A DNA stretch of 30,493 nt, from positions 1-30,493 of the IMG/VR virus record IMGVR_UViG_3300017728_000062. The stretch is one strand, 5' to 3'. Positions 1,027-21,355 of this stretch are shown here, in pieces; the first letter of the stretch is position 1; each line of letters begins with the position of its first letter. The notes under the pieces are model-generated. The model was not told the DNA's origin, did not search any database, and saw nothing but the letters and a program-made list of their open reading frames with translations. This DNA comes from a virus. A program made the position numbers and the translations under genes.

Positions 1027-1253
1027 GCTTCAGCCTTAGTAACCCACAGGCCGTCTTGATTTTCCAAGTCAATCGTTTCTCTAGAAGTTCCATTTAAATA
1101 AACAAGTAAACCTTTTATAAAATAGTGGTCTTGAATAATCTCTACAATTAAGCAGTTATTCTTTATTTTTCTACCGTAATAAAATATATCAATCATATCG
1201 CCTTCTTTTAACTGTGATACAAATCGTATTTCTTCTTTGTGCTTATCTGACAT
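1023..1253 (-). CDS. Small unknown protein, SH3-like barrel candidate
   Basis: This 76-residue protein is the last gene of the leftward cluster. Its start lies inside the 3' end of the vWA gene (11-nt overlap), which suggests translational coupling. The sequence alternates short hydrophobic strands with turns: a GDMIDIFYYG opening, an NCLIVEII strand, and a YLNGTSRETIDL strand. That layout resembles the small proteins at 4475-4732, 4729-4983 and 4931-5137, so it may belong to the same loose family of small beta-rich proteins. No catalytic motif, signal peptide or membrane segment is visible. Function is unknown. Confidence 0.65.
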   Translation of the reverse strand: MSDKHKEEIRFVSQLKEGDMIDIFYYGRKIKNNCLIVEIIQDHYFIKGLLVYLNGTSRETIDLENQDGLWVTKAEA

Positions 1254-2454
1254 TTATTTTAGTCTTTCCCCATCGCAAAGTAATTTGTGCATTGCTACTC
1301 AACATTTCAGTGCATGCATAAAAAGGTGCTACATCATAGAATTTAAATATTTTTTCTTCATTGTTGTATGTATAATCAATATTTTCTTCCAGAAGAGTCA
1401 AACCATTAAATATATTTGCTGGGTAATCTGCTAGTACTGGACCAATCTTACACATTATCTCTTCAATAATAGCATTGAATGCACCATTAACTTGTTGTGT
1501 ATTAACAATATAGTTATAGTCAATTGAGTTTTGATTCAACACGTTACCACTGACACTTTGTAAAGCAGCAACGTTTGCATTGTCTACACCTAGTGTATAC
1601 GTTGTTATACAAGGATTTTGAACAGTTGTTTGTCTGCAATTATCTGGATTAATACTGAAAATATTATTTTGCACAAAGTCTCGAGAAGGATCAATGCCTT
1701 CATTGGGCGATCCGTCACTAATTAGAATAATATAATAAGATTCATAATCAGTATTTCTAATTTTAGATAGAGCGCTATTCAAAGGGGAAAGAAAATTAGT
1801 TCCTCCTCCAGCGTTGTAAGTATTTAAAATAGACAATACGTTTAATTTGTGTTGCTGACCTTTTCCAATAGGCGTTTCTATTATAACATTGTCGTTGTAA
1901 AGAACTACTGAATAGTTTAAGTTATAGTCAGCATTTACAAATTGTCTTGCAGTAGTTTTTAGCTGATTTATTCTATTTCCTTGCATAGAGCCGCTAAAGT
2001 CTAGCAAAAGTATAACAGCTGTGTCTATTAACTCAATATCATGAACTTCTTCGTTTACCTCTAAGATGTTTTCTTTAGAAACATATCCTCTTCCTGGATC
2101 ATACGTGGATGTAATTTTAAATCTTCTCTTACACAAATCTTCAGCGTTACATTCGAGACCTAAGTCTTCACAAAAAAAGTCTGGCTCTGGTGATTCAAGA
2201 ACTATTGCGCATTGGTTTAAAGTATTACTCGAACAAATTGTTTCAATATCATTTGAATTTTTTATACCTTCTCCTACGTCAATACTACATGTATCAAGTA
2301 GTTGTTTTTCGTAAGATATGTTTAAAGATATTCTTCCATATTGAATTGCTATCAAAGAAATACTAGCCAAGACAGCTGCTAATAAAACTGTTGTTAAAGC
2401 TGCGAAACCTTTACTTTGAAGCCTTTTTGAGATATATAAGATGTTTTGTTCCAT
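1243..2454 (-). CDS. Membrane-anchored vWA-domain protein with pilin-like N-terminus
   Basis: This 403-residue protein has a basic N-terminus, then one hydrophobic segment at about residues 17-37 beginning SKGFAALTTV, then a mainly extracytoplasmic-looking part. The segment resembles class III/pilin-like or TadE/TadG-like anchors but lacks the Glu at +5 of true type IV pilins. A von Willebrand factor A domain follows from about residue 143. Its MIDAS motif looks complete: D152-x-S154-x-S156, T219 in GGGTN, and D247 in ISDGS. Many cysteines (for example at 56, 74, 82, 95, 101 and 108) suggest disulfides. vWA domains bind ligands through a metal ion, so a surface or virion adhesion role is plausible, but this is inference. 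The 5' end overlaps the upstream nuclease gene by 44 nt; no later start would keep the membrane segment. Confidence 0.75.
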   Translation of the reverse strand: MEQNILYISKRLQSKGFAALTTVLLAAVLASISLIAIQYGRISLNISYEKQLLDTCSIDVGEGIKNSNDIETICSSNTLNQCAIVLESPEPDFFCEDLGLECNAEDLCKRRFKITSTYDPGRGYVSKENILEVNEEVHDIELIDTAVILLLDFSGSMQGNRINQLKTTARQFVNADYNLNYSVVLYNDNVIIETPIGKGQQHKLNVLSILNTYNAGGGTNFLSPLNSALSKIRNTDYESYYIILISDGSPNEGIDPSRDFVQNNIFSINPDNCRQTTVQNPCITTYTLGVDNANVAALQSVSGNVLNQNSIDYNYIVNTQQVNGAFNAIIEEIMCKIGPVLADYPANIFNGLTLLEENIDYTYNNEEKIFKFYDVAPFYACTEMLSSNAQITLRWGKTKINVR

Positions 2455-3181
2455 TGTAATTTTTGTTTTCTATATTGTCTATATTCCAATAATGATTGCT
2501 TTGTTTAATCTGAGTATAAAACTCATGCATTAACAAAACATCAATGTTTACACCTTGCTGTTTTAAAATATCAGCAGCTAAGAGATTTGAATTAAACTTC
2601 CTATCTCGACGTATTGCTTTCAACTCTACGTACTTGCCAGTGTCAGGATGATAAAAGTCTGGTGTGTATTGTTTATCTCTTCCATCATATCGAACTGTAA
2701 AGGTTTTATGTTCATATATATAAGGCTTGTTTGTAGCTTCACACCACCTTGCATAGTCTGCTTCTAAAGATGACTTAAAGAAATAGCTTGGAGGTAAGTC
2801 ATATCTAAAACCTAGTCTGCCGTTAGAAGGTATTTCATGGAGACCACTGCTTTGCGCTTTGTTTTGACATTCCTTGCCACAATACTTTGTTTCTCTGCCT
2901 TTAGGTTTTTGATAGTCAACGCCGCAGTAATCGCATTTAAGATTAACTCTTTCGCGTTTATTTTTTTTTAGGTAGCATTCTCTAGAGCAATAAGTCTTTC
3001 CTCTCTTAGACTTAAAATCTATTCCACAAACTTCACATTTTTTAATGCTATATTTAATGCTTGACTTGTTTTTGCATTCTTTCGAGCAAAACTTTGATGT
3101 TTTTGCTCTTGACACAGGTTTCTTGTATTCTTTTTTGCAGCAATCACAAATTAAAGTGACTTGGGTTGATGTTTTCGGCAT
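2411..3181 (-). CDS. Zinc-finger PD-(D/E)XK endonuclease, candidate free-standing homing endonuclease
   Basis: The 256-residue protein begins with three similar zinc modules of pattern CxxC...CxxxC: C12/C15/C32/C36, C49/C52/C65/C69 and C83/C86/C91/C95. A restriction-endonuclease-like domain follows, with E130, P164-D165 and E176-L-K178 forming the PD...ExK catalytic set. Such zinc-finger plus PD-(D/E)XK proteins occur among phage free-standing homing endonucleases and related nucleases, so a mobile, site-specific DNA cutter is the best call; a repair or restriction role is possible. It sits between the epimerase and vWA genes and overlaps the vWA start by 44 nt, as expected for an inserted gene. 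Its ATG and Shine-Dalgarno lie inside an RNA hairpin (3179-3206), suggesting restrained translation. Confidence 0.75.
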   Translation of the reverse strand: MPKTSTQVTLICDCCKKEYKKPVSRAKTSKFCSKECKNKSSIKYSIKKCEVCGIDFKSKRGKTYCSRECYLKKNKRERVNLKCDYCGVDYQKPKGRETKYCGKECQNKAQSSGLHEIPSNGRLGFRYDLPPSYFFKSSLEADYARWCEATNKPYIYEHKTFTVRYDGRDKQYTPDFYHPDTGKYVELKAIRRDRKFNSNLLAADILKQQGVNIDVLLMHEFYTQIKQSNHYWNIDNIENKNYNGTKHLIYLKKASK

Positions 3182-3206
3182 ACTTACTCCTTTTTAAATA
3201 AGTATG
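3179..3206 (-). promoter_or_regulatory. RNA hairpin hiding the start codon of the endonuclease gene
   Basis: On the minus-strand mRNA, CAUACUUA (3206-3199) is an exact 8-bp complement of UAAGUAUG (3186-3179). The second arm contains the AUG start codon (3181-3179), and the 12-nt loop holds the Shine-Dalgarno AAAGGAG. Folding would block initiation. Similar hairpins over ribosome-binding sites are known to delay translation of T4 homing endonucleases such as I-TevI; applying that here is inference. The stem is AU-rich, so it may breathe. Confidence 0.6.
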
Positions 3207-3207
3207 C

Positions 3208-3240
3208 CTTAGGGCGACAACCCTAAGTATTTTACTTAGG
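3208..3240 (-). promoter_or_regulatory. Two mutually exclusive hairpins at the epimerase stop codon
   Basis: On the minus-strand RNA, CCUAAGUA (3240-3233) pairs with UACUUAGG (3229-3222) around an AAA loop; the UAA stop of the epimerase gene straddles the 5' arm and the loop. Alternatively CUUAGGG (3227-3221) pairs with CCCUAAG (3214-3208) around UUGUCG. Both structures use the same CUUAGG bases, so only one can form at a time. A ribosome at the stop codon would favour the second. No U-run follows, so a simple Rho-independent terminator is unlikely. Confidence 0.5.
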
Positions 3241-4218
3241 AAAAAATTGTTTTAGGTCAACATCTTGAGCTCTAGCTTGATCTAAGTATTTTAAAGGATT
3301 GTAACTCTCACTCGCATCTTTTATTGATTGCCATGACTGATCTATGCCTTGCCTAAGAGTTCGAACATTTGCAAAGCCCATAAAGTCAATAAACTTCTTA
3401 TTAGACAATCTATGGTTTCCTAGGTAGTCTGTTTCTGGGTGCCACTTAACTACAATTTCCAACGTTGAACCAGTAACTTCTTCTATGATAGAAACTATTT
3501 CTAAAGTATTATGTGGATTACTAGCTGTAATGTTAAAGTCTTCATTTCTGACATTAGAGTTAATCAGTCTTACAACACTATTACAGAAGTCCTCTACATG
3601 CATATAGTCTTTTATTTTTTCTGGATCTAAGAATATGTCAATGTTTTCTATTCCATTTTTAACACCAAATAAAGACTTCGCAATTAAAGAGTTCATATCG
3701 CCAATACCACCGTAAGCAAATAAAGGTCGCGTGACAAGCCACTCTTTTGCATTATTCCTTACTAACATCTCGCCGGCGTATTTCTGGACAGCGTAATTTG
3801 TCCTAGGAAATATTTCACTATTTTCAAGAATATCAGATTCTTGATACTTGTACGTGTCATAAATAACTGTTGTGCCTGTATACACAATTAGCATGTCACA
3901 ACTATTTGCAGCTTCAACAATTGTCTGTGTGCCTAAAATGTTCGTGTTGATGGAATCCTCAGGATTTAAAGCAACAACATCAGTTCCTACAACAGCTGCA
4001 TTATGCACAATGCAGTCAAGATTTAGACTTTTAAACAATTGAACCCAAGATTCAGTATTATTAGAATATACACAGACTTCATCTGTTTCTGTGTATATCA
4101 TCGCTGCCTTAGCATGTTCTGATTTATCAATAGATACAAATTCATGCCCTTGATTGATAATTTCTTGTGACAAGTTAGTTGCAATAAAACCTTTTTCGCC
4201 TGTAATGCCTATTTTCAT
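3232..4218 (-). CDS. NAD-dependent epimerase/dehydratase (extended SDR family)
   Basis: The 328-residue protein has the Rossmann nucleotide-binding start MKIGITGEKGFIATNL (a variant of TGxxGxxG, residues 4-12), an HNAA motif near residue 73, a Thr-rich strand YTGTTV at 113-118 and the catalytic Y142-x-x-x-K146. This is the pattern of extended short-chain dehydrogenases that act on nucleotide sugars. The exact substrate (4-epimerase, dehydratase or reductase) cannot be told. In phages such enzymes are thought to alter surface sugars of the host or virion. It starts with a 4-nt ATGA overlap with the small gene upstream and ends in the hairpin region before the endonuclease gene. Confidence 0.85.
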   Translation of the reverse strand: MKIGITGEKGFIATNLSQEIINQGHEFVSIDKSEHAKAAMIYTETDEVCVYSNNTESWVQLFKSLNLDCIVHNAAVVGTDVVALNPEDSINTNILGTQTIVEAANSCDMLIVYTGTTVIYDTYKYQESDILENSEIFPRTNYAVQKYAGEMLVRNNAKEWLVTRPLFAYGGIGDMNSLIAKSLFGVKNGIENIDIFLDPEKIKDYMHVEDFCNSVVRLINSNVRNEDFNITASNPHNTLEIVSIIEEVTGSTLEIVVKWHPETDYLGNHRLSNKKFIDFMGFANVRTLRQGIDQSWQSIKDASESYNPLKYLDQARAQDVDLKQFFPK

Positions 4219-4466
4219 TGATTGCTTCCTTTTAGAATTTTAACGACTTTTATGTCTTTTGTTTTAATGTTATATACTTTGTTGCTTTGTGTATCTAGCA
4301 TTTTATAGTCAAAAAACTTTTTAATGCCATATTTTGTTTTATTTTCAAAAAGATATTTTCTACTTAAAACCAGCGCTGTTCGTGGTCCTAAAAATTGATT
4401 TTTAAAAACTTTATGCATAAATGTTACAAGATCAGAAGATTCCAGTCCTTCTGTGTAAGATGACAT
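4215..4466 (-). CDS. Small unknown protein
   Basis: This 83-residue protein overlaps the epimerase start by 4 nt, so the two are likely co-translated. It is basic (many Lys), with no membrane segment and no motif I can name. The C-terminal third (YNIKTKDIKVVKIL) resembles the strand-turn-strand ends of the neighbouring small proteins, so it may be a distant member of that group. Its job is unknown; being coupled to the epimerase gene is the only hint. Confidence 0.6.
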   Translation of the reverse strand: MSSYTEGLESSDLVTFMHKVFKNQFLGPRTALVLSRKYLFENKTKYGIKKFFDYKMLDTQSNKVYNIKTKDIKVVKILKGSNQ

Positions 4467-4474
4467 ATAACTCC

Positions 4475-4732
4475 CTAGCTTAGATATTTAACTTGTATAT
4501 CAATTATTTTGTGTATTGTTATATTCTCTACTTTACCATCCCAGAAAATGGTCATTCCGGTGGGTCTAAGACCATCTTTAAGAGATAATCCTACTAATAA
4601 GCAATTTTCATATTTCTTTGGTTTATTATAATATGAATAATCAATAATTACACTTATCATTTTGCCAATATCATTTTTGTCTAAATAAAAGTCTTGATTT
4701 AACCTTATAAAGTCGCTGTTTATTTTCGTCAT
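4475..4732 (-). CDS. Small beta-rich protein, possible paralogue cluster member
   Basis: The protein has 85 residues. Its core reads DIGKMISVIIDYSYY, then YENCLLVGLSLKDG, then MTIFWDGKVENITIHKIIDIQV. This is a series of short strands closing with a D-hydrophobic-x-V end, like a small SH3-like barrel. The same order (opening strand pair, NCLLhhh strand, short loop, LhhhxxxG, Dhh) appears in the next gene upstream and, less clearly, at 1023-1253 and 4931-5137. It overlaps the upstream gene by 4 nt. No catalytic residues are evident. Function is unknown. Confidence 0.6.
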   Translation of the reverse strand: MTKINSDFIRLNQDFYLDKNDIGKMISVIIDYSYYNKPKKYENCLLVGLSLKDGLRPTGMTIFWDGKVENITIHKIIDIQVKYLS

Positions 4733-4983
4733 ACTGTCGTAACGCTAACAAATACATCCTCATCTTCTAAATCAACAGCCTGAAGTCTGCCTTTTTCTGT
4801 CATAAAAAGTAACAAGTCTTTATTTAAATTTCCTTTTTCAATGCATATCAAAAGGCAGTTTTGATAATTAGATATGAAGCTGTAACTCTTATACTGGATT
4901 GATACATTAACTATTTCTTTTATGTGTTGTTTAATTTTTTCTATCAAGAACTTTATACTCCATAATGCTATAAGGCACAACAT
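4729..4983 (-). CDS. Small beta-rich protein, start uncertain
   Basis: The frame gives 84 residues from an ATG at 4983, but that start lies 53 nt inside the upstream gene and has only a poor Shine-Dalgarno. A TTG at 4947, nearer the end of the upstream gene, would give about 72 residues; neither can be preferred with confidence. The conserved-looking part is IVNVSIQYKSYSF...YQNCLLICIEKG...LLLFMTEKGRLQAVDLEDEDVFVSV, parallel to the protein at 4475-4732. The hydrophobic N-terminus (CLIALWSIKFLI) may simply be readthrough of overlapping sequence rather than a membrane segment. Function is unknown. Confidence 0.5.
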   Translation of the reverse strand: MLCLIALWSIKFLIEKIKQHIKEIVNVSIQYKSYSFISNYQNCLLICIEKGNLNKDLLLFMTEKGRLQAVDLEDEDVFVSVTTV

Positions 4984-5137
4984 CAGTTGTCTTATTGCCT
5001 ATTACATAAATCATTGCAGAAAAATTTAGATCTTTTTTAATCTTATAGACTATCCCTAGCTTTTCTTCTTCGTTCGAGTAAAGAAAATTATATCTAATTA
5101 GGTCGCCTATTTTCAGGTCGTGTATGTAATCTATCAT
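4931..5137 (-). CDS. Small unknown protein, SH3-like barrel candidate
   Basis: This 68-residue protein starts at an ATG overlapping the Fpg stop codon by 4 nt (ATGA type), which points to translational coupling. It opens LKIGDLIRYNFLYSNEEEKLGIVYKI, a pattern (hGDLhR...GIVxKI) common among small barrel-like proteins of marine phages as I recall them, and ends with YSIMEYKVLDRK. It resembles its downstream neighbours in size and layout. No enzyme motif is visible and the role is unknown. Confidence 0.6.
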   Translation of the reverse strand: MIDYIHDLKIGDLIRYNFLYSNEEEKLGIVYKIKKDLNFSAMIYVIGNKTTDVVPYSIMEYKVLDRKN

Positions 5138-5952
5138 TGAAAATCTCTTTTTTTAGCTCCGATCGTCTGTCTTTCTCTAACCCAGTGTGTTGTCCTTTTA
5201 TCGAGAGTCGTTTCTTTAATTACATTATGACCATTACAGTCTTTGTTTCTTCCATAAACAACAAAACCTTGAACAGCATTCCCATTATTACCATCAAAAG
5301 TATAGTAACTTTGAATTGTTGCTCCTTGTTCATTATATGACTTGTTAATTACAAATCTTATCGCTTTATCAAGTGTTATCAGGTTTTTGTCTGTTAAATC
5401 TTTTATTAAAGAATGTGGATTTATACGTGAATACCATAAAGATTCTGCCTTGATATAATTACCAACTCCAGAAATAACCTTTTGATTCATCAATACATCA
5501 CATATATTTTTATTGTTTTTTTGCCTTAAAAACTTAACAAAATCAGATGAAGAAGGGGGATTAGACAACATGTCAGGTCCAATAGATTTAAGCTTTTTTG
5601 CCAAATCTTTTCGATTTTTAATCTGAACTGTTCCAAAATTTCTAATATCATTGAAATACAATGTATCGTCTTCATAAAATTTAATCTCTATTCTAGAGTG
5701 ATCTGTTTTTTTTCTAGACCAGTTTCCTGTCATCCCTAAAGTATTAAAAATAATTATGTCTTCTAAGTCAAACCATATAAATTTACCTTTGCAATTAAAA
5801 CTTTTAATTTCTTTGTCTGATAATATCTCTAGGTTTGAAATTGGTTTTTTGATATATCTTCCACTTAATACATTAACTGATTTTATTTGATAGTGTCTAA
5901 AATTTTGATTTAGCTTATCAACAAATAATTTAACTTCAGGTCCTTCTGGAAT
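5134..5952 (-). CDS. mutM: Formamidopyrimidine-DNA glycosylase (Fpg/MutM-like), AUU start, zincless finger
   Basis: From an ATT codon at 5952 the frame encodes 272 residues, close to the usual 270 or so. The N-terminus is then (M)PEGPEV, the family hallmark in which Pro2 is the catalytic nucleophile and Glu3 is also needed. Other family marks: KGKFIWFDL with the conserved Lys, LGMTG, DIRNFG, and the helix-two-turn-helix with NQKVISGVGN...E. The C-terminal VYGR...KRTTHW...Q matches the finger region but has only one Cys, so zinc binding is lost, as in zincless-finger relatives such as plant Fpg and NEIL1. The enzyme removes oxidised purines and cuts the abasic site. Beginning at the first ATG (5733) would delete the nucleophile, so the longer form is preferred. 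Confidence 0.88.
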   Translation of the reverse strand: MPEGPEVKLFVDKLNQNFRHYQIKSVNVLSGRYIKKPISNLEILSDKEIKSFNCKGKFIWFDLEDIIIFNTLGMTGNWSRKKTDHSRIEIKFYEDDTLYFNDIRNFGTVQIKNRKDLAKKLKSIGPDMLSNPPSSSDFVKFLRQKNNKNICDVLMNQKVISGVGNYIKAESLWYSRINPHSLIKDLTDKNLITLDKAIRFVINKSYNEQGATIQSYYTFDGNNGNAVQGFVVYGRNKDCNGHNVIKETTLDKRTTHWVRERQTIGAKKRDFQ

Positions 5953-5965
5953 AATACACCTTCCT
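5950..5965 (-). promoter_or_regulatory. Ribosome-binding site supporting an AUU start for the Fpg gene
   Basis: A strong Shine-Dalgarno AGGAAGG (5965-5959) lies 6 nt before an ATT codon (5952-5950) that directly precedes the CCA for the catalytic proline. An in-frame TAG at 5970-5968 bounds the frame. Between that stop and the proline there is no ATG, GTG or TTG in frame. AUU starts are rare; the best known is E. coli infC, where initiation is controlled by IF3. Confidence 0.7.
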
Positions 5966-5992
5966 AACTATTTTTTTACAAAATTTAAATCT

Positions 5993-6202
5993 TTAATCAT
6001 TTAAAATTCTATTAGCTTCAGGATCGTCTAAGTCTGTATTTGCTAAATCTTTTTCATTTTCTTCCAGATCAGGCAAAGTATTGTCATGCACATAATTTGC
6101 TAAATTATCTTTTCCAACCCATTTAAAAAATTGCATTAGCGGATGACCAATTATATTGTGAAATGCATAGTTTTTAAGAAATTTTCTGTATTTAAGATTC
6201 AT
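5993..6202 (-). CDS. Small unknown protein with HNIIGHPLM motif
   Basis: The protein has 69 residues: a basic N-terminal half containing FHNIIGHPLMQFFKWVG and a strongly acidic C-terminal half (DLEENEKDLANTDLDDPE). Short phage proteins with a similar NIIGHPL(M) string seem familiar to me from marine phages, but I know of no function. The N-terminal half could be an amphipathic helix; there is no clear transmembrane segment. It sits 3 bp after the deoxyribosyltransferase gene and about 40 bp before the Fpg ATT start, probably in the same transcript. Confidence 0.6.
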   Translation of the reverse strand: MNLKYRKFLKNYAFHNIIGHPLMQFFKWVGKDNLANYVHDNTLPDLEENEKDLANTDLDDPEANRILND

Positions 6203-6205
6203 TTT

Positions 6206-6655
6206 TTACTCAATTGCGTCTGCATAAGGTTCGTTTGGCAAGCTGCCAGTTTCAATAATTCTATCAAGATAGTCTTCTAATTGTTCAAATGTTGTGCAGA
6301 CTTTAATTCCACTTCTTGCTAGCATAAGATTAAACTTAGCGCCAGGAGGAAGACCTGCGCAAAAATAAACTATTGGTCTTTTAAATGCATGCGCATAGCC
6401 AGCTTCCCAAATAGTTCCAATGTCTTTGTCTCTTGTGTTAACAAGAAGAAAGTCTGAAGTTTCAATATGATGAAGATTTCCTGTAAATGTTTCGTCTTGG
6501 ACTTCTTTTGTCGCATCAGGCGGACAAATAAATATCCTGCGTGGTGATGCTAAATCAAAAGATTCAGCACGATCATCAAAAATCTTTTCTAATTGCGTAA
6601 GTTCTGCGTCTTGTGTAGGATTAAACCAACCGCTAGCTAAATAAATCTTTTTCAT
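6206..6655 (-). CDS. Nucleoside 2-deoxyribosyltransferase-like enzyme
   Basis: The 149-residue protein has the usual length and marks of the family: the opening KKIYLASGWFNPTQ (substrate loop), ETSDFLLVNTRDKDIGT, and WEAGYAHAFKRPIVYF, with E84 in the position of the catalytic glutamate and D78 nearby. These enzymes swap or hydrolyse the base of 2'-deoxynucleosides or their monophosphates, so it could salvage bases or clear unwanted nucleotides. It follows the divergent ThyX gene by about 80 bp. That suggests a nucleotide or base-modification role, which is inference. A clear Shine-Dalgarno (AAAAGGA) precedes the ATG. Confidence 0.82.
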   Translation of the reverse strand: MKKIYLASGWFNPTQDAELTQLEKIFDDRAESFDLASPRRIFICPPDATKEVQDETFTGNLHHIETSDFLLVNTRDKDIGTIWEAGYAHAFKRPIVYFCAGLPPGAKFNLMLARSGIKVCTTFEQLEDYLDRIIETGSLPNEPYADAIE

Positions 6656-6695
6656 TAAATTGTTCCTTTTATAAATAAATTACTATATTTTTAAT

Positions 6696-6737
6696 TGTTT
6701 TACATTAGAGATTGTTGTTTGTAGCTGTTTTACATTA
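6696..6737. repeat. 12-bp direct repeat
   Basis: TGTTTTACATTA occurs at 6696-6707 and again at 6726-6737, 30 bp apart start to start, in the gap between the ThyX-like and deoxyribosyltransferase genes; the second copy covers the ThyX-like stop codon. On the minus strand it reads TAATGTAAAACA, containing the TGTAAA core seen in the promoter-like motifs, but no good -10 follows. It may be a regulator site or AT-rich chance. Confidence 0.4.
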
Positions 6738-7706
6738 AAACTCGCTATCTAAATTTTTTCTGATTAATCGTACAGCTTCAACATCATCGTTCCACATTCT
6801 TGTAAAGATTTTTTCTTCACCAGATTTGTTTCCATTAATCTCTTCACGACGACATGCATAAATTGAATCTTTTTCATTAAATTCAAACAAATCGTTCTTT
6901 GGCTCTGGCTGATAAAGATTTGTGCCTCGTGAGGTAAAGGAACCATCAGGCAATTCAACCCTAAAGGTTCGAACATAATGCATGTCAGGTTTTTCAAAGT
7001 TTAAGCATGTAGAAACTTCAGGTATTGCTGTGCAAACAATTTTTGCGATACGTGTTGCAATAATATTATCTACTTCTGGTTGAATTTGCACATCTTGACG
7101 CTGTCTAATAAAACCAATTAAATCTTTAAGATTAAATCGAGCAACATAAAAAGTCTCAAGTGCCTTAGGCAAAATAACTCGTGAGTCCATTAACGACACA
7201 ACGCGAGAATCAACCATATCAGAATAAAGTTGTTTTGCTGCAGAAGCAACTTCAATAAATCGATGATGAAAGTCTGAGTTTTCAACAGACTCAGGAACTA
7301 AAATGTTGTCATTCCTAAGATCACGATCACCGGTGCACTGCGCTGCAAATGAACCTGCTCTATGTCTAATTAAATGAGTTACAGTTTGTGTATCGATTCC
7401 ACTAATTTTAAAAGTAAAACCTAAACACTCCATAGGCGTTGGAAGTGCTCTAAAGTTAAGAACATCTTGCAAGTTAAGTGAGGCTTCTTCTGGTAAAGCA
7501 TTTTCAAATGAAGTCTCAGAAGGTGTGTCAGCCCAAGTTGCTTTTGTCATGTGCCACGCAATTTTTTGAGCTTGCTCTCTTGTAGGTCCATCAATTAACT
7601 CAATATCAAGTGACTCTAGATTGTTAATGTAATTAGTAACAGGAACTTGATCAAATTTAAGCTCCATAGGAAGAGTGACTTGTTTAAGATCATTATTAAT
7701 TGGCAA
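6735..7706 (-). CDS. Divergent flavin-dependent thymidylate synthase (ThyX) paralogue
   Basis: This 323-residue protein is longer than usual ThyX (about 220-250). It keeps the general ThyX plan: PTPMECLGFTFKISG before R114-H115-R116, then SRVILPKALETFYVARFNLKDLIGFIRQR and RQDVQIQPEV, whose Arg aligns with the dUMP-binding Arg. The signature RHRx7S is altered: the last Ser is Cys (C124), and the Glu two positions earlier is Ala. There are extra N- and C-terminal parts. Because a canonical ThyX is encoded at 9419-10123, this copy may use another nucleotide or make a modified base. It starts at TTG (7706), with AAAGGAG placed well upstream and no better start. A promoter-like motif precedes it. 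Confidence 0.8.
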   Translation of the reverse strand: MPINNDLKQVTLPMELKFDQVPVTNYINNLESLDIELIDGPTREQAQKIAWHMTKATWADTPSETSFENALPEEASLNLQDVLNFRALPTPMECLGFTFKISGIDTQTVTHLIRHRAGSFAAQCTGDRDLRNDNILVPESVENSDFHHRFIEVASAAKQLYSDMVDSRVVSLMDSRVILPKALETFYVARFNLKDLIGFIRQRQDVQIQPEVDNIIATRIAKIVCTAIPEVSTCLNFEKPDMHYVRTFRVELPDGSFTSRGTNLYQPEPKNDLFEFNEKDSIYACRREEINGNKSGEEKIFTRMWNDDVEAVRLIRKNLDSEF

Positions 7707-7733
7707 ATTTATTCTCCTTTGTATTTACCATTT

Positions 7734-7762
7734 ATTTTAATATTAAAAATTAAAATTTACAC
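7734..7762 (-). promoter_or_regulatory. Promoter-like motif GTGTAA-17-TAAAAT upstream of the ThyX paralogue
   Basis: On the minus strand GTGTAA (7762-7757, in context TGTGTAAA) is followed after 17 bp by TAAAAT (7739-7734), 5 of 6 matches to a sigma70 -10. Transcription would begin near 7727, about 20 bp before the TTG start. The upstream element matches those at 10173-10178, 19671-19676 and 23349-23354. Confidence 0.55.
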
Positions 7763-7764
7763 AT

Positions 7765-8415
7765 TTATGTTTTATTAATCTGATTTCTTAGCTGGATTAA
7801 AAGTTCTTTGTCTTTATGTGAAGCATTTAAAGTTTTCAATACATCAGAAAAACTGACTTTTTTTAAAATGCAAGTAGTCATAACATATTCGTATAAAGAA
7901 TCGATGTCAGCTTGGATTGCATCTTTCTTTTCTATATCTAGATGTAAAATGTTTTTATTAACGACAAATTGCAGTTCTTTAGCTAGAACGCAAAAAAGTG
8001 AGGTCTTGAATTTATTTAAATCTTTAATTTTTAAATTCGAAGATATTGAACATTCTATAAATCCTTCATCACTTTTATGTTTTTTATCATAATAAAAATT
8101 ACAATTTAAAACTTCAAAATAAAAATTTTTAAAAGTATCAATTAAATTTAAAGTAATGTCACACATAAAATCGTAGCATATAAGCAAAGAGTGGTTAAAG
8201 TTAACATCATAGGTTTTATTAAATATGTTTTTAAAGCTCGAGGTCGCTGTCATTTGTAAAATGTCAGACTCTATATTGATTGTAATGTTTCCATTGTTTA
8301 TCATTCCTGTAATATAAATCAAATCAAATTCAATAATTCGCCATATGTTGTCAAGATAGTAATAAGACCTAAAGTTATTGTTTTTATATAATTCTAGATC
8401 TTCGTGGAAAAACAT
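7765..8415 (-). CDS. Unknown protein, 216 residues
   Basis: I do not recognise this protein. It is rich in Asn, Phe, Tyr and Lys and looks soluble and alpha/beta, with no signal peptide or clear membrane helix. The N-terminal two thirds alternate short strands (WRIIEFDLIYITGMINNGNITINIESDILQ); the C-terminal third looks helical (KDAIQADIDSLYEYV...SFSDVLKTLNASHKDKELLIQLRNQ). It lies between the all-alpha dUTPase-like gene and the promoter of the ThyX paralogue, so it is probably the last gene of the transcript starting before the canonical ThyX. No function is proposed. Confidence 0.65.
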   Translation of the reverse strand: MFFHEDLELYKNNNFRSYYYLDNIWRIIEFDLIYITGMINNGNITINIESDILQMTATSSFKNIFNKTYDVNFNHSLLICYDFMCDITLNLIDTFKNFYFEVLNCNFYYDKKHKSDEGFIECSISSNLKIKDLNKFKTSLFCVLAKELQFVVNKNILHLDIEKKDAIQADIDSLYEYVMTTCILKKVSFSDVLKTLNASHKDKELLIQLRNQINKT

Positions 8416-8429
8416 GTTACACCTTTAGA

Positions 8430-8804
8430 TTAATACCCTTTTGTTAACCTTTCTTTAATTATCTCGTCTTTCTTTTTAAATGCATTGTAAAATTCGTCAA
8501 CGTCTACACCTATTAAAATAATAAGAGAATAAAAATAATTAAAAGCATCGACAATTTCTTCTAAAAACTCTTCTCTATTGATTTCTGGCATTTCTGTTTC
8601 TCTATGTGGCTTCCAGTTTTTTAAATGTCCAAGTGCTTCAAACATTTCTTCTACACCTTTAAGAGCTGTTTCACGCAGTAAAGCTTGACTACTTTTACTT
8701 GAAATATCTACTGGCCAAGATGGATATGAATCTTTATATTTTTCTTTGATTAAATGCATAAAGACTTCTCTTTTTTCAAAGATTTCGTCTAATCTATCTT
8801 GCAT
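8430..8804 (-). CDS. All-alpha NTP pyrophosphohydrolase, dimeric dUTPase/MazG-like
   Basis: The 124-residue helical protein carries the metal-binding pattern of the all-alpha NTP pyrophosphatase superfamily: E53-x-x-E56 in VEEMFEALGHL and E83-x-x-D86 in LEEIVDAFNYF, with a preceding ETALKG helix. The spacing and the DAFNYF segment resemble dimeric dUTPase-like enzymes more than MazG. The likely reaction is dUTP (or dUDP) to dUMP and phosphate or pyrophosphate, feeding ThyX next door. It would be a second, unrelated dUTPase beside the trimeric one at 14718-15203. It could also act on another dNTP. It follows the 72-residue gene by 3 bp. Confidence 0.78.
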   Translation of the reverse strand: MQDRLDEIFEKREVFMHLIKEKYKDSYPSWPVDISSKSSQALLRETALKGVEEMFEALGHLKNWKPHRETEMPEINREEFLEEIVDAFNYFYSLIILIGVDVDEFYNAFKKKDEIIKERLTKGY

Positions 8805-19705: not shown

Positions 19706-21355
19706 TCAACTAAGCTTTTTAGCTTTTTCTTGAGCTTTCTTCTCAGCTTTTAACCTTTTAATTTCTTCTATTTTAAGGCATAAGTCATTAAATGCTTGAG
19801 TTATAATTGCAATATTTTCATTGTTATAGTTATCGCCTGGCTCGACAATGCGCCAAGCTCTTTTGTTTCTTACAACTCCTAACATTGTTTTCATTATCTT
19901 AGAAGCTAAGCTTTTATTTGGATTGTTTAACAAGTCAACAATATCACTTGTAAATTCATAAAAACTTTCAGGTGTAAAGAAGACTCTTAGTTTAGTCCTA
20001 AGGTTCATGCTACCAATCGTCACTGCGTAGTTTAAAGTATTGTATCCTGATGAGTTTTTTCTTATTTGATCACTTGAATCTAAAGTTACATCCTGTAGTT
20101 TTATTGCTTCAGCAACTTCAAACAAGCTTTGAGAAGCTGATCTTAGGTCGATAGCTCCATACTCAAATGATGATGCAAATGGACTTTGGATTCGTTGTAA
20201 GTCTCCATACTTTGGATTAGGTATCTTAAATCCTATTTGATCTTTAATAGAAACAAAAAGACCTTCAAAAGGAGAACTAGGTGCAATCAAAGATCCACTT
20301 AATGAAGTCATAAGTAATTCAGTTAACTGTGGTTTTATGTTTTCTAAAACAAACTGTTTAAAAGATCCCGTCGAATGACTTTGAATTTCCTGTTTTAAAG
20401 AAGAAAGTATATCAATATATTCCTGAGTTATTTCAGGAAATCTTTTTGCTTGATTTGGTCCCATAAAATAAATATTGTATTCTGGATTTGTCATTGCTTT
20501 TGCATCTTCTTCAGTAAATTCTCCTGAGTATACAACTGCGTATTCTTTTCTGCCAGGTATACTGTATGATATATAATCGCCTTTTCTATCATCTGATTTA
20601 AGTGATTCAACGCCAAAGTATTTATAAGTTCCTTCTGGCATTTTGTGTGGGTAAGAATATTTAAAAGAATTGTATATACTTCTAGAAGCTCCGGATCTAT
20701 TTAAAAATAAATACCAATTGTATCCTGCACGTCTTCGATGGCTAGATTTTTTAAACTCATCGTATGTATGTAAGTCGCTGTATTTTGTTTTCATAATGTC
20801 AACATTAGTTACTGGTAGACCTTTTTTTAATCTATCAGACTTTTCTTTATCAAAAGATTTTTTTGTCGCAATAAAAATCTGTGGGCCTGTGTTTATAGTT
20901 TTGTTTGTCTTTTTATCTTTTTTATAACCATCTGGTCCAATCAAAACTGAAACGTGTTGTCCACTAAACTTTTCTGTCATACTTATTTGATAGCCTTCAA
21001 CAGCATTACCTAACATATGCTCTATAAAAGCTAAGATCTGATCTTTAGAAAGATTTTCTAGTTGTGGTGTTTTTTTTGATTCAAACAAAAAAGAATAATT
21101 TTCTTTTAGTGTCCTCTTTCTACCTTTTTCTCCGCCATTCTTAAGATACCACTGAACAGATCTTGTATAAGTCTTTTTCTTTTTACCTTTTGATCTATGC
21201 TTTTTATCTGTTGCAGTAGACTTTTTGTACATATTTTTTCCTTGAGAACCAGCTTTTGGTCCTGTTCCTAAAGGTGTTACTACTCCACCAATACCTCCAG
21301 CTACGCTAAATTCTCTAACTAGTGCTTCTAAAACTTTATTATAAATATCTTGCAT
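19706..21355 (-). CDS. Ligase-like nucleotidyltransferase, putative
   Basis: The protein has 549 residues. The N-terminal 90 or so are basic and low in complexity (KKHRSKGKKKKTYTR). From about residue 120 the pattern resembles DNA/RNA ligases: ISMTE128-K129-F-S-G132 as motif I with the Lys to be adenylated, IFIATKK, YFGVESLKSD as motif III-like, PFEGLFVSI near 363 as motif IV and GFKIPNP near 376 as motif V. T4-like marine phages carry large unknown proteins with an EKxxGQ block of this kind, as I recall. The DNA or RNA substrate cannot be told, and activity is unproven. It ends in a Lys/Glu-rich helix. It closes the operon that starts with the small polymerase. Confidence 0.55.
   Translation of the reverse strand: MQDIYNKVLEALVREFSVAGGIGGVVTPLGTGPKAGSQGKNMYKKSTATDKKHRSKGKKKKTYTRSVQWYLKNGGEKGRKRTLKENYSFLFESKKTPQLENLSKDQILAFIEHMLGNAVEGYQISMTEKFSGQHVSVLIGPDGYKKDKKTNKTINTGPQIFIATKKSFDKEKSDRLKKGLPVTNVDIMKTKYSDLHTYDEFKKSSHRRRAGYNWYLFLNRSGASRSIYNSFKYSYPHKMPEGTYKYFGVESLKSDDRKGDYISYSIPGRKEYAVVYSGEFTEEDAKAMTNPEYNIYFMGPNQAKRFPEITQEYIDILSSLKQEIQSHSTGSFKQFVLENIKPQLTELLMTSLSGSLIAPSSPFEGLFVSIKDQIGFKIPNPKYGDLQRIQSPFASSFEYGAIDLRSASQSLFEVAEAIKLQDVTLDSSDQIRKNSSGYNTLNYAVTIGSMNLRTKLRVFFTPESFYEFTSDIVDLLNNPNKSLASKIMKTMLGVVRNKRAWRIVEPGDNYNNENIAIITQAFNDLCLKIEEIKRLKAEKKAQEKAKKLS

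Follow-up and report, generated by a model that had tools for sequence, protein, structure and literature searches.

Phage T4 segB encodes an endonuclease of the GIY-YIG family. In its message, as in those of T4 I-TevI and of mobE from Aeromonas phage Aeh1, a hairpin hides the ribosome-binding site, and the transcripts that begin at the late promoter of I-TevI are too short to form that hairpin (PMC2988022). In a second account, an effect of the hairpin on translation is shown for mobE and implicated for segB, and in T4 gene e the late promoters lie in the region that encodes the 5′ strand of the masking stem, with late messages being free of it (PMC3014915). Here we describe a locus of similar anatomy in a group of little-known bacterial viruses, distant relatives of T4, in which a stable stem pairs the Shine–Dalgarno sequence (SD) and the AUG of a nuclease gene, as in I-TevI, segB, mobE and e.

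As with T4 I-TevI, the gene is that of an endonuclease on what would be a long multi-gene message, the stem masks its SD, and a message begun inside the 5′ arm would escape (PMC2988022). Unlike I-TevI, which the same source describes as a GIY-YIG enzyme encoded in the td intron, the gene at this locus is free-standing and its product PD-(D/E)XK-like; a late promoter is established for I-TevI, whereas here there is only a motif (PMC2988022). A free-standing phage endonuclease gene with a hairpin that masks its ribosome-binding site is shared with segB and mobE, the latter of the HNH type (PMC2988022), but the nuclease belongs to another family than either, the phage clade is remote from theirs and the stems have been rebuilt across relatives. 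Like T4 gene e in the second account cited above, the locus has its candidate promoter in the 5′ strand of the masking stem; unlike it, the gene is that of a nuclease (gene e encodes lysozyme), and in gene e the promoters have been mapped. Judged by this anatomy, the present case is predicted to work as I-TevI, segB, mobE and e do, and we assign a probability of roughly 0.6 to the reading that its hairpin brakes nuclease translation at the RNA level and that messages starting inside the 5′ arm are released from it. Regulation of this type is already known from I-TevI, segB and mobE, and the phage clade and the nuclease family are its new carriers; we found no description of such an arrangement in these phages in the open-access literature, a scope outside which most subscription journals fall.

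The window, by which we mean the whole stretch of DNA analysed, is a virus record of 30,493 bases, and the locus is the junction in it between two genes on the minus strand, that of an NAD-dependent epimerase (3232..4218, 328 aa, Pfam PF01370), the upstream neighbour, whose stop codon occupies 3234-3232, and that of the nuclease (2411..3181, 256 aa). Downstream, a gene for a VWA-domain protein (1243..2454, minus strand, Pfam PF13519/PF00092) starts inside the nuclease gene, and the order epimerase, nuclease, VWA-domain gene is kept in many relatives. The nuclease and VWA-domain genes have 44 nt (2411-2454) in common, the 3′ end of the one and the start of the other, so that a deletion of the nuclease could damage its neighbour. 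All larger genes between 1243 and 30397 lie closely packed on one strand, many of them with replication or nucleotide functions, and the nuclease gene is situated near the downstream end of this long block. No Rfam family reached its gathering threshold anywhere in the window.

Many genes of the window, mostly 45-95% identical, are shared with contigs of 75-153 kb, among them G004 and G007. Gp23 (PF07068) was found in 5 of 15 nuclease-carrying records, these two included, and nowhere within the 30 kb of the window. An early guess that these were Pelagibacter phages was dropped; judged by UvsX and by a structural-region protein of G004, the named phages that come nearest, with 30-37% protein identity, are Microcystis phage Mel-JY01 and Flavobacterium phage immuto. 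A search for the late sigma factor with gp55 of HTVC008M gave no match in 14 records, profile phrog_12791 matched HTVC008M itself alone, and profile phrog_234 (gp55) gave a weak match in G004 (4.7e-4), whose ORF occurs in 5 of the 15 records, exactly those with Gp23. The remote gp55-like candidate, L064:5191-5973, has relatives in G005, G006, G007 and G009; Pfam and PHROGs assign no sigma factor to it, and from their sequences it and its relatives are a possible, distant late sigma factor.

The nuclease protein combines N-terminal CxxC repeats, resembling a zinc ribbon, with a C-terminal PD-(D/E)XK-like domain in which D175, E186 and K188 are invariant in 17 of 17 aligned rows. We take these three to be the PD-(D/E)XK catalytic residues and read the order of helices and strands predicted with a modest model as the one expected of that fold; the protein is a probable DNA-cutting enzyme. 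Its C-terminal part matched phrog_945 (endonuclease, 5.1e-6), its CxxC region matched phrog_1271 (HNH endonuclease, 8.1e-16), and one relative weakly matched Phage_endo_I (0.0072). For the nuclease of the window there was no Pfam family, no tblastn match among 50,697 named phage records, and nothing significant in the PDB by sequence or, with the modest model, by fold; the T4 endonuclease VII family was found in 0 of 9 records by a search that gave no match anywhere and is hence uninformative.

The nuclease was present at 47 of 65 epimerase loci, and of the 18 loci that lacked it, one (L214) is on a truncated contig and 17 belong to remote relatives with identities of 38-50%, so that occupied and empty sites among close relatives were not found in this set. 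Empty loci that are exclusively remote or truncated are unlike the site pattern expected of an active homing gene, and from the sequences the nuclease has the look of a settled resident, not of a homing gene that is polymorphic; it would be as likely to serve such a resident role, for example as a resolvase-like or host-DNA nuclease. It mostly adjoins the epimerase, the exceptions being loci with no epimerase match (L007, which has a short flank, L021, L040, L042, L163, L164, L170 and L173) and three in which the epimerase lies 234-1267 nt away (L053, L054 and L156). The comparison with T4 homing endonucleases drawn in a preliminary description of this DNA was apt for the mode of regulation, but homing in its usual polymorphic sense is doubtful.

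That description had reported three inverted repeats in the junction, here called hairpins A, B and C, and all three were found where it had placed them. Hairpin C (3177..3208, minus strand) consists of a 5′ arm at 3208-3196, a loop at 3195-3190 and a 3′ arm at 3189-3177, and forms 13 pairs, including two G-U pairs, around CAUACUUA/UAAGUAUG. The AUG of the nuclease (3181-3179) is buried in the stem as had been proposed; the SD, AAGGAG (3187..3192, minus strand), had been placed in the loop, which is half true, as the other half is paired, and the stem is longer than had been described. From the AGGAG part of the SD onward, the sequence is invariant in an alignment of 15 leaders. Computed folding of the 101-nt region gave -29.8 kcal/mol against a mean of -13.1 for shuffled sequences (z = -6.15; 0 of 200 shuffles as low), and the partition function gave hairpin C a probability of 0.99 in contexts of 101 to 601 nt.

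The strength of the mask was expressed as opening energy, the cost of unfolding the region from -14 to +3 around the start, and leaders were dereplicated by merging identical ones and thinning those at least 80% identical. The opening energy in the window, 17.3 kcal/mol, was equalled or exceeded by 1 of 73 other leaders, and the median was 11.7 in 20 dereplicated nuclease leaders vs 3.1 in those 73 from the same contigs. A value of at least 9 kcal/mol was reached by 10 of 10 nuclease copies vs 25 of 450 other genes (767 genes scanned, 460 with an SD), and a value of at least 7.5 kcal/mol by 21 of 26 dereplicated nuclease leaders, distant relatives included, vs 37 of the 450; the set of 26 omits L166-L168 and L173, which have no SD-preceded start, and the maskless L166-L168 count against universality. 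A start-site hairpin does hide the start of the nuclease, and this mask far exceeds what other genes in these phages show. We infer that it represses the nuclease in vivo.

The preliminary description had gone further and let the three hairpins compete, with a ribosome that ends the epimerase deciding which of them forms and the nuclease being coupled or delayed in consequence. The three inverted repeats exist in the window, hairpin A (CCUAAGUA/UACUUAGG on the coding strand with a 3-nt loop; 3222..3240, minus strand) does span the epimerase stop codon, both partners of one of its pairs have changed in a group of relatives, and A and hairpin B (CUUAGGG/CCCUAAG on the coding strand; 3208..3227, minus strand) are indeed mutually exclusive. 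Hairpin C, however, is compatible with either of them, the one nucleotide that B and C share being 3208, and it kept its probability of 0.99 when 3260-3220, and even the stretch to 3212, was held single-stranded as a model of a ribosome at the epimerase stop. In the partition function the probability of A varied with the context (0.38-0.75) and that of B was 0.01-0.05; the cross-pairings proposed between the UAAGUA and UACUUA segments of A and C came out at 0.00. In the relatives, 82.7% of the cells of A were paired, a percentage that 10 of 500 shuffles reach, but the hairpin is often interrupted and its central pair is unformed in 9 of 14 rows; B showed no covariation, and 452 of 500 shuffles pair equally well. 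Coupling to the epimerase fares no better, as masking is retained in L021, L042, L053, L054 and L156, loci that either lack the epimerase or have it over 230 nt upstream, and the distance to the upstream gene ranges from 40 to over 1200 nt among relatives that retain the mask. With A weak in relatives, B devoid of covariation and C unmoved by the modelled ribosome, a ribosome-driven switch was rejected, and we regard its chance as negligible.

The same observations bear on whether the stem is an element of mRNA processing or stability, or a terminator, whose position at the start site would be incidental. A stable stem between two coding regions is what such an element would look like, but what this stem tracks is the nuclease start, with its SD and AUG, rather than the stop codon upstream. 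No terminator was found on the coding strand from 2300 to 8500. The interval contained 1 terminator-like site, fewer than the 2.1 expected, and this was hairpin B, on the opposite strand. We consider an element of this kind most improbable.

A scan of viral contigs gave 53 relatives of the nuclease at 68-92% identity, and a profile scan gave 72 nuclease loci with identity down to 43%; the 15 leaders of the covariation alignment were taken from the nearest relatives. In these leaders 91.8% of the cells of hairpin C were paired, compared with 26-52% in slid controls, and none of 500 shuffles was as high, nor did any of 500 reach its covariation score. At pair 11-41, two sequences have A-U in place of G-C; at pair 16-36, U-A or A-U replaces C-G, among four cells in which both sides are changed or wobbled. 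Compensatory changes were confined to these 2 of the 13 pairs, a count matched by 189 of 500 shuffles, and the support for hairpin C therefore lies in the percentage paired and the covariation score. The preliminary description had proposed to look for covariation and had named a lack of compensatory changes in relatives as an argument against it; such changes exist in relatives, and the hairpin therefore survives.

The stem of hairpin C is extended by G-U pairs in 13 of 15 and 7 of 15 rows. These two pairs matter for an RNA, but not for a DNA palindrome, and they bear on the possibility that the repeat is an operator bound as DNA, either by the nuclease itself, in autorepression as in I-TevI, or by another protein. 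A near-perfect inverted repeat does surround the start, and I-TevI has an operator over its late promoter (PMC2988022). The sequence of the arms, however, changes wholesale from relative to relative while the nuclease remains 54-92% identical, and we hold an operator to be very unlikely.

In relatives further removed, the mask is kept with stems of unrelated sequence and of different topologies: GATATTTA/TAAATATC in L034, TAATACT/AGTATTA in L029, CCATAAGTA/TACTTATGG in L045, GATTGAC/GTCAATC in L053, and in L159 a stem in which the SD itself forms part of the 5′ arm. Masks of 15.5-16.7 kcal/mol were found in records reached via a helicase search, namely L359 and L360, which have identical leaders, and L361; masks were weak in L040, L163/L164 and L170. 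In L166-L168 there was no mask, and the nuclease AUG lies 4 nt past the epimerase match (around position 2500) with no SD, an arrangement suggestive of coupling in place of masking. The 87-kb contig G016 carries two members of the nuclease family, at 50134-50892 and 61639-62400 (L356 and L362), the second of which is divergent and has a weaker mask of 7.5 kcal/mol. Masks rebuilt from unrelated sequence across dozens of uncultured relatives indicate selection for masking itself, and a fold that many relatives keep despite changed letters suggests, at the level of sequence, a brake on the timing or the amount of the enzyme.

How such a brake might be released is suggested by ATACTTA (3199..3205, minus strand), an instance of a promoter-like core, ATANTTA, within the 5′ arm of hairpin C. 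In the window, a computed message start 6 nt past ATACTTA (about 3192-3194) removes the 5′ arm and lowers the opening energy from 17.3 to 0.8 kcal/mol, and in messages whose 5′ end is 3200 or any position downstream of it, the probability of hairpin C is at most 0.06. Messages that read through from the upstream replication and nucleotide genes would have the start folded away and would yield little nuclease. A message begun inside the 5′ arm would lack that arm, and its start site would therefore be open; ATANTTA, which lies in the arm at a fitting distance, is the candidate promoter of this shortened message, and the nuclease would be made mainly while that promoter was active, probably late in infection, in the manner of T4 I-TevI and segB and of Aeh1 mobE.

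Between -36 and -20, ATANTTA is present in 20 of 26 dereplicated nuclease leaders vs 84 of 450 other genes; the reversed pattern, which served as a composition control, is present in 39 of the 450. When 209 upstream regions from T4-like contigs, with nuclease leaders excluded, were searched for motifs, ATAaTTAta emerged (log-likelihood 78 vs 36-50 in shuffled sets); in another set, drawn from contigs closer to the window and comprising 144 regions, the top motifs were instead GTGTAAAT and a TATAAT-like one. GTGTAAAT recurs upstream of genes in G001, G003, G002, G010 and the window, in about 22% of the 144 regions, and is possibly another promoter class. Under the motif model the nuclease leaders scored a median of 3.5, little above the 2.6 of other genes, in a comparison that took the best-scoring sites, which lie elsewhere in some leaders, whereas the count of 20 of 26 uses the plain ATANTTA pattern; the C in the ATACTTA of the window is rare in the model (0-2%). 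The plain T4 late promoter, TATAAATA, is absent from the window leader. Upstream regions of HTVC008M, which is remote from this group, show ATAAATA; NATAAATA is given for cyanophage S-PM2 (PMC2984593) and late promoter prediction failed in pelagimyophages, a different marine T4-like group (PMC7029224). ATACTTATC was seen after the epimerase in L235, a locus without the nuclease.

Alternatively, the hairpin could be a constant damper that lowers the nuclease at all times, with no internal promoter, ATANTTA being there largely as the pairing partner of UAAGUAU. The mask is wider in its distribution than the motif: ATANTTA is absent from 6 of the 26 dereplicated leaders, four of which are still masked at 7.5 kcal/mol or more, and strong masks without it occur in L053, L054 and L359-L361. 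Two comparisons with early genes gave no clear separation of ATANTTA as a mark of late genes, the motif being found at 4 of 21 structural vs 4 of 77 replication genes (p = 0.06) and, with a longer upstream stretch, at 6 of 21 vs 14 of 77 (p = 0.22), which leaves room for a damper. Against it, the motif is kept with a different stem in L045 and in the loop, as ATACTTA, of another endonuclease leader, L257, and its distance to the AUG is steady in most leaders. We consider a constant damper doubtful, and prefer the reading of hairpin C as a brake released from within its 5′ arm, in which we infer both the use of the motif as a promoter and the late timing.

Strong start hairpins are also found outside this nuclease family. 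Among GIY-YIG, HNH-type and other PD-(D/E)XK-like endonuclease hits in records of these phages, of which 14 of 15 were scored (L252, below the family cut-off, was left out), seven (L249 and L253-L258) have opening energies in the 87th percentile or higher, and ATANTTA is present in six of these seven leaders; the opening energy of L246, whose start is uncertain, is also high. The pattern is missing from four further short GIY-YIG proteins and from L250 and L251. Start hairpins together with ATANTTA were noted in the leaders of GIY-YIG, HNH-type and PD-(D/E)XK-like endonuclease genes at L097:11237-12052, L092:2856-3842, L097:295-1203 and L086:5534-6916. Some ThyX, exonuclease and other genes also have strong start hairpins, and the masking device is therefore not limited to endonucleases. 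Examples are the ThyX-like genes at L099:17410-18108, L098:13812-14510 and L091:8063-8764, with stems such as TCATATATTAATA with TATTAATATATGA. Within the window, a 549-aa gene without a family match (19706-21355, minus strand) has a masked start of 12.4 kcal/mol with GATAAATATATAAT just upstream, and the opening energy of its relative in G001 is 10.2; directly downstream of the nuclease in L021, a 161-aa gene (L021:2641) has a start hairpin of 20.3 kcal/mol with CATATTTA in the 5′ arm.

As a tentative extension, to which we give rather less than an even chance, endonucleases of the unrelated PD-(D/E)XK, GIY-YIG and HNH types may share one device in these phages, in which the promoter core sits in the arm or loop and the stem is rebuilt around it while the core and its spacing are kept, and ATANTTA may be an unrecognised late promoter of the clade. 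Some 40 bases would then be clock and lock in one. The leaders of the nuclease gene also point to a motif that may be a promoter in this uncultured T4-like clade.
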